Below, in pieces: positions 20,973 through 57,940 of a DNA stretch of 64,000 nt. The stretch is from Brevundimonas sp. M20. GTDB lineage: Bacteria > Pseudomonadota > Alphaproteobacteria > Caulobacterales > Caulobacteraceae. The DNA is taken from positions 1,193,001 to 1,257,000 of the forward strand of contig NZ_CP041243.1 in NCBI RefSeq assembly GCF_006547065.1, read 5' to 3'. The notes below the pieces were generated by a model. The model was not told the origin of the DNA. It ran no database searches and was given only the letters and a program-made list of their open reading frames with translations. The translations under genes were made by a program, and so were the position numbers. Each line of letters begins with the position of its first letter. The stretch's first letter is position 1.

Positions 20973-21102
20973 CCCTCCGTCACGGCGCGAAGCCGCGCCG
21001 CGCCACCTCCCCACTGGGTGGAGAGGCGAATTCCAGCCTCACCTCTCCAGCGAAGCTGGGGAGGGGGATCATGCGAGCCGGAGGCGAAGCATGGTGGAGG
21101 GG
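20973..21102. repeat. Dispersed palindromic repeat, copy A
   Basis: It starts with CCCTCCGTCACGGCGCGAAG directly behind the preceding stop and contains CCTCCCCACT-type and AGCTGGGGAGGGGG arms and a closing GTGGAGGGG. A 36-base block at 20974-21009 and a 20-base block at 21061-21080 recur essentially unchanged at 26591-26626 and 26641-26660. No coding potential is evident. Confidence 0.85.
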
Positions 21103-26529: not shown

Positions 26530-26684
26530 CCCCTCCGTCTCTCCGGCTTCGCCGTCGAGCCACCTCCCCACTGCGTGGAGAGGTGAGAACCCCTCCGTCA
26601 CGGCGCGAAGCCGCGCCGCGCCACCTCTCCACGCAGTGGGGAGGGGGATCATGCGAGCCGCATGGCGAAGTATGGTGGAGGGGT
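26530..26684. repeat. Dispersed palindromic repeat, copy B (double)
   Basis: Two CCCTCCGTC-headed units lie side by side: a shorter one at 26530-26589 and a fuller one at 26590-26684. Arms CCACCTCTCCACGCAGTGGG and GTGGAGAGGTG pair within the element. The fuller unit shares long identical blocks with copy A at 20973-21102. It ends ten bases before the first palindromic operator of the next operon. Confidence 0.85.
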
Positions 26685-47441: not shown

Positions 47442-47510
47442 GTTCTTCCCTCTCCCGATGGGAGAGGGCTTGAGCTGTCCCTCTGCGCCTGCACCTGACG
47501 CTGGCCCTGC

Positions 47511-47564
47511 GTCTCCTCCCCGTCGCGCCGCGATGGCGAGGGGGACCGCGAAGCGGTGGAGGGG
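47511..47564. repeat. Left inverted repeat of the DUF559 cassette
   Basis: 54 bases reading GTCTCCTCCCCGTCGCGCCG at the left and closing with CGCGAAGCGGTGGAGGGG. Its complement (47929-47982) matches at 49 of 54 positions. It ends four bases before the stop codon of the DUF559 gene. It shares arms with the dispersed repeats near 4471, 20973, 26530 and 57629. Confidence 0.9.
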
Positions 47565-47568
47565 GGCT

Positions 47569-47925
47569 TCACCCCAAGCGCCGCTCGGCGACCATCCGTA
47601 GCGACAACAGAACACCGTCAAGATTTGTCCGCACCTCTTCGGCGGCGATCCTCAAAACGGCCAGTCCCTGCCGTTCCAGCCAAGCGGTCCTGCGACGATC
47701 GTGGTTGATGCGGTCGGGGTGGGAATGGCTTTGGCCATCGACCTCACCCGCCAGCTTCGCTTCGGCGCAGTAGAAGTCGAGCAAATAGGGGCCAATGGGA
47801 TGCTGGCGGCGGAACTTCAGGCCGGCCAGAGCGCGACGCCGCAAGCAAACCCATAGTCGGGCCTCCGGCGGCGTCAGAGCTCGACGGTGGATGCGCGCTC
47901 GCGAGACAGAACCTTCGGAACTCAA
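47569..47925 (-). CDS. DUF559-domain endonuclease-like protein
   Basis: 118 aa if begun at the TTG placed right against the right repeat arm, whose GGAGG gives a Shine-Dalgarno five bases away. A longer reading into the repeat (to 48003) is probably an artefact. The DUF559 core is ALTPPEARLWVCLRRRALAG, KFRRQHPIGPYLLDFYCAEA and GEVDGQSHSHPDR, with Asp50 and Glu61 in the expected places of a PD-(D/E)XK-like, Vsr-related nuclease. Function in the cell is unknown. Lies exactly between two 54-bp inverted repeats. Confidence 0.85.
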   Translation of the reverse strand: MSSEGSVSRARIHRRALTPPEARLWVCLRRRALAGLKFRRQHPIGPYLLDFYCAEAKLAGEVDGQSHSHPDRINHDRRRTAWLERQGLAVLRIAAEEVRTNLDGVLLSLRMVAERRLG

Positions 47926-47928
47926 AAG

Positions 47929-47982
47929 CCCCTCCACCGCTTCGCGGTCCCCCTCCCCATTGCTCCGCAACGGGGAGGAGAC
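47929..47982. repeat. Right inverted repeat of the DUF559 cassette
   Basis: The inverse of the left arm at 47511-47564 (49/54 identical). It starts three bases before the DUF559 start codon on its strand and supplies its ribosome binding site. The two arms read into the cassette symmetrically, as terminal inverted repeats of a mobile unit would. Confidence 0.9.
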
Positions 47983-48051
47983 GTCAAGACAGCGCCAACT
48001 CACGGTCGGAAGTCCGCAGTGGGTCGCGGGCAGTCACCCGCCTGTGAGCCG

Positions 48052-48145
48052 AACTGGCCCCCGCCCAAAGAGGCTGACCTTTGCTGTTATCGTCATTCCG
48101 GCCTTCGCCGGGATGACGACAGCTCGTGTGGGCTCCGGGCCAGTT
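48052..48145. repeat. Nested hairpin repeat upstream of the orphan gene
   Basis: The outer arms AACTGGCCC (48052-48060) and GGGCCAGTT (48137-48145) enclose a 13-bp hairpin (TCGTCATTCCGGC/GCCGGGATGACGA, 48090-48119, one G-T pair). The inner hairpin is related to the arms of the element at 19099-19254. Degenerate GCTGACCTT direct repeats flank it. No coding sequence. Confidence 0.7.
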
Positions 48146-48236
48146 GAACCCGGAAGTCAGCAACGTCCGCCGAGGGTGGAACGCTGACCTTCCGTCTGTA
48201 TCCTCACCGGATTCTTCTTCGGCGGAGGGGGCAAGC

Positions 48237-49034
48237 ATGAGGTGGCTGGATCGGGTGTTCGGCAGAACGCGATCAACTGTGGGCTCGCAGTCCCCCGCTA
48301 CCGATGAGCATCTGACGATGGATCCGTACGCGATAAACAAAGCAGATGCGTCGGCCTGGATCGCAGGCTCCCACGACGCAATTCCTGACCTGGTCAAAGC
48401 TGGCGATTTCGCCTGGGTGGCGAACAATCATCGCATGATTGCGGAGAAACAAACCGAGCTTGGCCTGTTGAACTGGCGGCATGGCCTCGATCCCCGTCCG
48501 GATTTCGAGAGAGCGATCAAGGCCTATGACGACCTCCGCGAGATAGCGCAGACGCACAATCTGGCTCGGAGCGATTACGAGCCATCGCTGGTCTATGCGA
48601 TGCTCTCACTCATGGGACGAAGGGTTCCCATCGCGTTCCATGATGCAAGAGCTCATGAGGCGTATCGCATCGGCTGCTATCAGTTCTGCATCGTCAGTGC
48701 GCTGCATGATCAGCCGCTGGACGGACGTCACGTCGGCTTGCTCGATAAACACTTCGGGCAGAACGACGGCCTGCCAGACAGGAGCTTCCTGACCTACTTC
48801 CAACTTCTGGGGATGCGTCCGACCGATAAATCTCCCGACGAGTTGGTGCGATTCGCGGAGGCCAACTGGGCAGAGCGCCGATACGACAGGTTCTTCGCCG
48901 AAGGTCCGGCTTGGAACGGCTATGGCGATGCCAATGAGCTGTACGTCGACATTTATCTCGCCGGTGTCCTGAGAAAGATCGGATGGAAGGGCGAGGGTCT
49001 TCATCGCTGGAGATGGGAAGCGCCGGTAAGTTGA
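48237..49034 (+). CDS. Orphan protein of unknown function, lower GC than neighbours
   Basis: 265 aa. The start MRWLDRVFGRTRSTVG was chosen because GGAGGGGGC lies ahead; an upstream frame to 48126 is repeat sequence. The body looks helical and soluble, with FAWVANNHRMIAEKQTELGL, DFERAIKAYDDLREIAQTHN and a C-terminal LYVDIYLAGVLRKIGWKGEG. By eye, GC is clearly below the neighbours (more AT at third positions). It resembles no family I can name; an immunity-like or accessory protein is one guess. Confidence 0.6.
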   Translation: MRWLDRVFGRTRSTVGSQSPATDEHLTMDPYAINKADASAWIAGSHDAIPDLVKAGDFAWVANNHRMIAEKQTELGLLNWRHGLDPRPDFERAIKAYDDLREIAQTHNLARSDYEPSLVYAMLSLMGRRVPIAFHDARAHEAYRIGCYQFCIVSALHDQPLDGRHVGLLDKHFGQNDGLPDRSFLTYFQLLGMRPTDKSPDELVRFAEANWAERRYDRFFAEGPAWNGYGDANELYVDIYLAGVLRKIGWKGEGLHRWRWEAPVS

Positions 49035-49163
49035 GCCCCGGAAGTCTCAGCGTCGGTGCCCGGCGGCTTCGTCCGCAACGGGTCGTAATCAGTCATGCGC
49101 TGATGCGCCGAAAGCGGAAGTGTCTTGTCTGACCCTGGATCGAGCCGGAACGACGACGTCCGA

Positions 49164-55119: not shown

Positions 55120-55271
55120 CCCTTCTCCCCTTGGGGGAGAAGGTGGGCGGCGAAGCCGCTCGGATGAGGGGTATGCTTCAGCCCGCGGGATGCGAGACGA
55201 TGAGCGCGAGGCCGGCAGCCCCCTCATCCGTCTCGCTCCGCGAGACACCTTCTCCCCCGAGGGGAGAAGGA
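55120..55271. repeat. Palindromic repeat with CCTTCTCCCC ends
   Basis: Ends CCTTCTCCCC-TT-GGGGGAGAAGGTG (55121-55145) and CACCTTCTCCCCCGAGGGGA (from 55246) are near mirror images, so the whole 150 bp can fold on itself, and each end can also fold alone. The middle has CCCTCATCC and GGATGAGGG in opposite orientation. A shorter relative sits at 28224-28251. Confidence 0.85.
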
Positions 55272-57601: not shown

Positions 57602-57940
57602 ATCGGGCTTCTGAACCCGAAAATCCCGCTTCTCCTCCCCGTTGGCGTCGCCAAGGGGGAGGTGGCGCGCCGCGAAGTCGCGGCGTGACGGAGGGGGTAT
57701 GCCCGCGTCCGGTCCCGAGAGCCCCTTCGAGGCGATGCTCGTTCCCCCTTGCTTTCGTCACCCTCCGGCAAGCCGCGACCGGCGAAAGACAGGTCTTGGA
57801 GGTTTGGCTTCAGCGCTGTCGTTAACCGCTGGAAAACCCCCGCTTCACGTCAACTTAAGAGAACCGTGTTGAGACTGTCAGGGAAGAAGGCAAAGCCCCC
57901 GCGCAGTCGCGCTTGAGAGGGGCGAACAGGCCGGGTGGTG
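57602..57940 (+). other. Intergenic region ahead of divK
   Basis: This 339-base gap holds three things. A small hairpin (TCGGG..CCCGA) lies right after the previous stop. A palindromic repeat at 57629-57697 starts CTCCTCCCCGTTGGCGTCGC and ends GACGGAGGGGG, of the same family as 20973 and 47511. The divK promoter region follows, with TTAACCGC (57822-57829) and TTAA (57855-57858), which resemble CtrA half-sites. No protein-coding ORF with family support is seen. Confidence 0.7.

Follow-up and report, generated by a model that had tools for sequence, protein, structure and literature searches.

The arrangement of arm, DUF559 nuclease gene and inverted arm is probably the gene-bearing (autonomous) form of a mobile family with ends of the PIT/TM type, in which the nuclease spreads the repeats that are cognate to it. 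The observations behind this reading are that DUF559 genes are boxed by such arms, that arm type follows nuclease clade, that arm pairs also occur without a gene, that arms and gene are present or absent as one block, and that the same type recurs at unrelated sites. This would make it a mobile unit of a new kind, with movement and cleavage that we infer from sequence, and it suggests that DUF559 is the missing engine that spreads a common bacterial repeat family.

The unit in the window, the layout of its arms and its enzyme

In the window, by which we mean the whole 64,000-nucleotide stretch of DNA that was analysed, the unit and the elements related to it or close to it are the following (strand in brackets):

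47511-47564 (+), left arm, type B, with a hairpin, a second hairpin and a gene-facing purine tail
47569-47925 (-), DUF559 (PF04480) nuclease gene, 118 aa, with a TTG start that is our choice of start codon
47929-47982 (-), right arm, type B, inverted, ending in a likely ribosome-binding stretch
47442-49163 (no strand), extra stretch between an AcrB-type pump gene and a cytochrome c gene (Pfam), holding the DUF559 unit and ~1.2 kb more
48089-48122, CGTC-REP-like palindrome (CGTCATTCCGGCCTTCGCCGGGATGACGA) shortly downstream of the DUF559 unit, within the extra stretch
21041-21102 (+), type-B-like arm without a gene
26530-26584 (-), second arm near the one at 26624-26684, facing away from it
26624-26684 (+), type-B-like arm without a gene
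55120-55271 (no strand), gene-less inverted pair of type-A arms, ~150 bp, tails inward, with a centre of ~54 nt
57634-57699 (+), single arm-like hairpin with a tail

The earlier note on this DNA had described a DUF559 gene tightly bracketed by inverted 54-bp repeats, one of which provides the ribosome-binding site, and both parts of the description hold. The arms are inverted and identical at 49 of 54 positions, with 4 nt between the left arm and the stop codon and 3 nt between the start codon and the right arm, and GGAGGGG at the end of the right arm, close before the TTG, can serve as a Shine-Dalgarno-like sequence. The full inverted repeat spans 69 nt at 84% identity (47496-47564 / 47929-47997), and the flank-to-flank score of the unit is 42.5, against a maximum of 18.5 in 1000 shuffles of the flanks and of 28.5 at 1000 random window positions with the same geometry. 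The left arm is too degenerate to be called by either the type-B pattern or the triplex detector, and the right arm is the only one of the two that passes the detector. Between the arms there is space only for the DUF559 gene, and the open reading frames and a Pfam scan revealed no transposase there.

The further claim that the same arm occurs elsewhere in the window without the gene holds loosely: the arms at 21041-21102 and 26624-26684 are related to those of the unit but not identical to them, the gene-less pair at 55120-55271 is of another type (A), and the stretch at 57634-57699 is one more arm-like hairpin. Genome-wide, the type-B pattern has nine exact matches, the window's right arm among them. 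The single-contig 3.3-Mb genome carries five DUF559 matches (L001-L005), three of which (L001, L003 and L005) are clearly boxed, each by its own arm sequence; L002 has a frame with a TGA and diverged arms, and at L004 the left arm is missing and two arm-like stretches lie on the 3' side. That arm pairs match within a unit and not between units was the first sign of a system.

Each arm follows the order of pyrimidine strand, loop, purine strand, linker (often with a second hairpin) and a purine tail toward the gene, and the tail mirrors the purine strand of the stem, in many cases with a T in place of one A, as in the stem and tail GGGAGAGGG and GGGTGAGGG or GGGGGAAGG and GGATGGGGG. A tail of this kind is what the third strand of an antiparallel purine triplex requires (triads G*G.C, A*A.T and T*A.T). 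At the named loci, 200 of 362 stems have a mirror tail with at most one misfit. With stems picked regardless of their tails, the mirror fits better than the direct repeat in 80 cases and worse in 9 (p 2e-13), the remaining 111 being ties; in 162 of 201 cases, against 39, a stem suits its own tail more closely than other stems do on average. We defined five arm types, A-E, by stem and tail (the letters are ours); types A-C mostly have an extra hairpin in the linker, and the E-type arm matches the published E. coli triplex-motif consensus. A hairpin with a third purine strand mirroring the stem is what defines PIT/TM repeats, and to judge by sequence the arms are members of this intrastrand-triplex class. 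No GTAG tag was noticed in them by eye.

The window protein matches PF04480 with an E value of 1.2e-29. A Pfam scan returned only this family and PF18741, the latter below its cut-off, and the YcjD model, also below its cut-off, was the only NCBIfam match. Across 32 members, E21, W25, R40, Q41, D50, F51, E61, D63, G64, D76 and R92 are invariant and H67 nearly so. The nearest fold to the AF2 model (mean pLDDT 89.6) is 3hrl from Neisseria, followed by I-Bth0305I (3r3p), the same order as in a profile search of the PDB; Foldseek gives 3r3p a probability of 1.00 and an E value of 3.5e-5, and Vsr 0.98-0.99 with E values of 0.02-0.07, the weaker matches being PvuRts1I, AbaSI, Vsr and mitoribosomal chains. 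As modelled, the DUF559 protein has the fold and the conserved acidic and histidine residues of the I-Bth0305I kind, an enzyme that we take to belong to the EDxHD group. Neither the Pfam scan nor the fold search found an HUH/Y1 tyrosine transposase at the window unit. A role in anti-phage defence was considered and set aside, the PADLOC matches being weak and partial (homing-endonuclease model, 2e-4; DpdF, 8e-5). In the accessible portions of the literature, YcjD has been linked to Vsr (PMC1189080), and the Caulobacter DUF559 protein VsrA, proposed as a very-short-patch repair enzyme, is needed for the SOS response and DNA-damage signalling without the methylase ScmA (PMC12907096), which is indirect evidence that a DUF559-type protein cuts DNA in cells.

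Boxed DUF559 genes and the match between arm type and nuclease clade

Boxing of DUF559 genes by arms, which the earlier note proposed to look for in related genomes, is found there and far beyond. With one triplex-arm detector, inward arms are present on both sides of 140 of 204 DUF559 loci and on at least one side of 192; these loci, which range from one genus up to several phyla, were best-scoring or pattern-chosen and non-random, so the boxed fraction among all DUF559 genes may be lower. Left out of this count were L012, L018 and L019 (short contigs) and the second domains of L054 and L075 in the genus set, L094 and L101 in the class, two of the 80 named loci, and L287 in the phylum. Inward arms number 367 at the 204 loci and outward arms 194. 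Arms on both sides were seen at 0/49 control ORFs (any side 1/49; genus and named loci only), 0/47 window ORFs (any side 4/47), 0/67 GIY-YIG loci (any side 2/67) and in 0/204 locally shuffled DUF559 flanks (any side 2/204).

Scores for inverted repeats in the flanks point the same way. PF04480 occurs in 57 of 61 same-genus genomes, mostly in 2-6 copies and with up to 9 matches per genome. Within the genus, the flank inverted repeat reaches at least 25 in 49 of 74 DUF559 domains (350-nt flanks; the five own domains, the best hits and the listed hits of well-assembled genomes), and none of 38 control genes in the same genus loci reaches even 20 (250-nt flanks). In the class draw, 9 of 27 DUF559 loci score at least 25, and in 21 of the 27 the triplex detector finds an inward arm on each side; in the phylum draw, 13 of 27 score at least 20 and 11 of 27 have arms on both sides. 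Of the 80 named loci, 78 were scored and 54 reach at least 20, a figure that becomes 53 without L216, which scores on N runs only and is not evidence; those at or above 20 include Chloroflexi, Nitrospira, beta-, gamma- and deltaproteobacteria, Gastranaerophilales and FCPU426. Mismatched flank pairs of named loci reach 20 in 8.4%, and 27 of the 78 loci show a direct-orientation match of at least 20, as expected of stacked palindromic arms, so the inverted scores overstate pairing somewhat. One unit in another family of the class (L294) has arms of ~100 bp that are almost identical (score 98.5), likely marking a recent copy, and a second DUF559 match lies ~5 kb from it.

Arm type follows nuclease clade, also across unrelated sites. 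Where both arms could be typed, they are of one type in 36 of 37 units from genus and class, with agreement in 32 of 32 genus units whose arms were both fully typed; the sole mixed unit, L092, combines A and E, two similar types. A nuclease tree of 58 typed rows, built on few columns and with many weak forks, requires 6 type changes, against a shuffled mean of 28.2 and a minimum of 22 (2000 shuffles). Several units share a locus, and the rows were therefore collapsed to 36, including four added loci typed by hand, which again require 6 changes against a mean of 16.7 and a minimum of 12 (5000 shuffles). One candidate, L322, was 55% identical to the type-C query and was rejected as type C; it falls in the type-B clade and has B-like arms.

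The earlier note also proposed to test whether repeat number rises in genomes that carry the gene; it does, with a weaker relation inside the genus. In the class draw of 142 genomes, nearly one per family, at least one copy of the E-type arm pattern is present in 26 of 37 genomes with a DUF559 match (E < 1e-20) and in 10 of 105 others (p 4e-12), and at least five times in 22 of 37 against 2 of 105. Outside the class (213 genomes), 24 of 31 DUF559 genomes have the arm pattern at least once against 13 of 182 (p 1.8e-16), and 17 of 31 at least five times against 7 of 182; these p values are uncorrected for kinship, and a single family supplies many genomes of the phylum draw. The reversed arm pattern, as a control, gave one match in one genome in all. 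Within the genus, type-C arms are commoner in genomes with a filled response-regulator junction (described below) than in the 40 genomes counted as not filled, several of which have a type-C gene elsewhere (median 9 against 1.5, p 0.0025). Some genomes, however, have many arms and no matching gene: G026, G055 and G045 carry 37, 29 and 23 type-C arms, and a type-C gene was not found in them. Conversely, G017 has a filled junction and zero type-C arms by the exact pattern. Gene and arm number thus match loosely within the genus, and the type-C gene predicts arm number only moderately.

Filled and empty sites and the competing explanations

Gene-less inverted arm pairs are common. For type C, 12 such pairs in 11 loci have centres of 42-44 nt and similar ends, with AGGGC next to one arm and GCGC/GCGG-like bases next to the other, much as at the inner junctions of units with a gene; other spacings also occur, some near 63. 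A possible second cargo between type-C arms (L193, 383-nt centre) was discarded, as the ORF list offered no convincing gene by eye.

The comparison of empty with filled sites, proposed in the earlier note, uncovered both versions of one site in species of the same genus. At the junction beside a response regulator (Pfam match; the next gene looks like its kinase, with no Pfam match in the 175 aa examined), a whole type-C unit is present in 17 of 57 genomes, and 25 of 57 have an armless gap of 3-31 bp, which means that the arms came or went with the gene there. A further 5 of 57 have a gene-less type-B pair and 10 of 57 an unrelated repeat. These classes were assigned by eye from the gaps, and 4 of 61 genomes (G005, G023, G038 and G041) were unclassable. 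The unrelated repeat is inverted, GAGTGGCGAGTGGCGAG-like and ~130-165 bp long, and was seen at L111, L119, L125, L173-L176, L178, L185 and L187. Arms and gene are thus present or absent as one block at one site, although such data alone cannot separate insertion from clean loss.

The window's own site gives a similar picture among the 29 of 60 relatives compared. The pump and cytochrome c genes lie 25-227 nt apart (aligned ends) in 28 of the 29, the exception being L148, with no cytochrome gene on its contig. In all 28 relatives with both neighbour genes, including G058, the closest by this gene, no DUF559 match was found at the site. By eye, 23 of the 29 are armless, four have a type-A pair, one a type-C pair, and one a type-B arm followed by masked bases. 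Some of these pairs stand where other genomes have a terminator-like hairpin, and simple insertion therefore does not explain every change. There are type-C genes at further loci, too, with no flank similarity to the response-regulator junction (L317/L318, L320/L321 and L323/L324). Type-C arms are present at L317, L318, L320, L321 and L324, the last with a decayed gene; L323 has the matching tail only, and L319, at a contig end, has no type-C arm. One genome, G046, has two type-C units.

These sites bear on an explanation that we regard as unlikely, in which a homing-type gene invades pre-existing arm pairs, cutting gene-less copies that are repaired from filled ones, and the arms spread by other means. 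It would account for the structural kinship to I-Bth0305I, for the abundance of gene-less pairs that could serve as targets, and for the different DUF559 clades found in the same glyQ-glyS gap and at a neighbouring site. Against it stand the 25 response-regulator junctions and 23 own-site relatives described above, which are armless, although cleavage targets without arms may exist.

Many DUF559 units occupy positions that several species have in common, and vertical inheritance with loss therefore accounts for some of the pattern. Units of two DUF559 clades in the genus, and one unit in another family, lie in the glyQ-glyS gap (Pfam for L001; units L001, L047, L054, L064, L075b and L087), which may be a resident or a hot-spot site. 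Fixed, conserved neighbourhoods without arms had been named as a finding that would count against mobility: several units do occupy shared sites, which makes some of them long resident. It is improbable, in our judgement, that DUF559 is simply a resident, vertically inherited repair nuclease of the Vsr kind around which arms gather as common intergenic triplex repeats or terminators. The shared sites and the part of VsrA in the SOS response as a proposed repair enzyme, in the available text of PMC12907096, speak for this explanation; the lack of arms on both sides of other genes (0/49, 0/47) and of GIY-YIG genes (0/67), the agreement of arm type with nuclease clade across unrelated sites, and the up to 9 PF04480 matches per genus genome speak against it.

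Target-site duplications show no excess over mismatched flanks in 127 units, with one isolated 8-bp candidate at L294 and one of 9 bp at L005 (by eye), which makes classic cut-and-paste less likely and accords with a route through single strands or repair. We give very little credence to passive carriage, in which an unrelated transposase uses the arms as terminal repeats with DUF559 as its passenger: terminal inverted repeats and gene-less derivatives do look like a MITE family, but a general target-site duplication is absent, DUF559 is the gene common to the groups, with type-specific co-evolution and conserved putative active-site residues, and transposase or integrase remnants were never found around E. 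coli motif sites according to the accessible part of Holder et al. (PMC4666352).

A possible route of copying, known systems and a probable second nuclease/repeat pair

For the mobile unit with triplex-type ends that we favour, the following route can be envisaged. DUF559 would act as a PD-(D/E)XK enzyme of the Vsr / EDxHD homing-endonuclease kind that recognises its own arm type when one strand folds into a hairpin with a purine third strand, most likely at replication forks. It would nick or cut at the folded arm, and host repair and replication could then insert copies at new intergenic sites, either of the whole unit or, in trans, of a gene-less two-arm form.

Set beside known systems, the DUF559 units compare as follows:

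(i) REP/REPIN-RAYT systems, as generally understood, likewise have a small nuclease gene bracketed by inverted palindromes, numerous pairs that lack the gene, and a repeat type that matches the enzyme type. RAYT (TnpA-REP) is an HUH tyrosine enzyme and its palindromes are GTAG-tagged, whereas the DUF559 units have a PD-(D/E)XK enzyme and a purine/pyrimidine hairpin with a mirror purine tail. The proposal of a REP/RAYT-type system therefore stands for appearance and probable working and fails for descent, as an HUH transposase was not found and the repeat class differs.

(ii) PIT/TM/ITxF repeats follow the same rule as the DUF559 arms but have been presented as a cause of instability, with no mobility gene attached, whereas here they are the ends of a nuclease unit.

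(iii) I-Bth0305I and Vsr share the fold and a similar set of acidic and histidine residues. Unlike the homing endonuclease I-Bth0305I, DUF559 units are repeat-flanked, no intron or intein was seen, and their empty sites are armless.

(iv) MITEs and IS elements also have terminal inverted repeats and short gene-less derivatives (in type C, many with a 42-45-nt centre), but DUF559 units are without a transposase and without general target-site duplication.

In another family of the class (L301), DUF559 is likewise boxed by type-A-like arms, which Rhizobium RIME repeats may resemble.

Intrastrand-triplex motifs, known earlier as PIT elements (Hoyne et al., as cited), include a G/C-rich motif in >260 genomes; as far as the accessible part of the report tells, those of E. 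coli form five inverted pairs, their flanking genes have no common function, and the motif forms a triplex in vitro that in vivo footprinting did not support (PMC4666352). The same source places TM no. 9 of E. coli K-12 beside ycjD, which encodes the E. coli DUF559 protein. In K-12, a triplex motif lies ~170 bp beyond the ycjD stop codon, and a second arm-like hairpin overlaps the stop. The fabI-sapF gap of this strain holds ycjD and the triplex motif (L285; L314-L316 are strains without), and a place that covers 80% or more of the ycjD region exists in 3362 of 5426 genomes. A clean empty/filled site at ycjD was sought and rejected: in the three other genomes examined, the place next to fabI is taken by a TetR regulator and an RND periplasmic adaptor gene, which looks like a replacement.

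That a DUF559 mobile system of this form had not been described, as the earlier note believed, agrees with the titles, abstract openings and passages of the accessible literature that were searched, where neither the DUF559/triplex-repeat nor the GIY-YIG/REP pairing is reported. If confirmed, the unit would assign a function to DUF559, a family frequently classed with Vsr-like repair enzymes, and would point to nucleases that may read unusual DNA folds.

A broader idea, which we put forward tentatively and hold to be nearly an even bet, is that the palindromic repeats of bacteria form a guild of selfish elements. Every class would have a small stand-alone nuclease to itself, with a fold unrelated to the others, and would move via structured single strands without a classical transposase. 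HUH enzymes driving GTAG REPs are the known case; DUF559 would serve PIT/TM repeats and small GIY-YIG nucleases the CGTC REPs. Were a nuclease tied to each repeat, the commonness of the repeats could be tested by adding or removing one small gene. CGTC REPs have been described as seemingly without a dedicated transposase (PMC3733652, accessible part). GIY-YIG (PF01541) loci were chosen as a plain negative control, a use that is valid for triplex arms and fails otherwise, as they show repeats of their own: inverted flank repeats of at least 20 occur in 22 of 67 loci (L327-L396, phylum draw, three of 70 left out), against 2.1% of 795 mismatched pairs. GIY-YIG genes and these other palindromes are, by sequence, a probable second nuclease/repeat pair. 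Several of the flank palindromes are of the GTCATTCCCGCGAAAGCGGGAATCCAG or GTCGTCCCTGCGAACGCAGGGACCCATA kind and resemble CGTC REPs, others are TTCGACAAGCTCAG-like or different, and most of these GIY-YIG frames are short.
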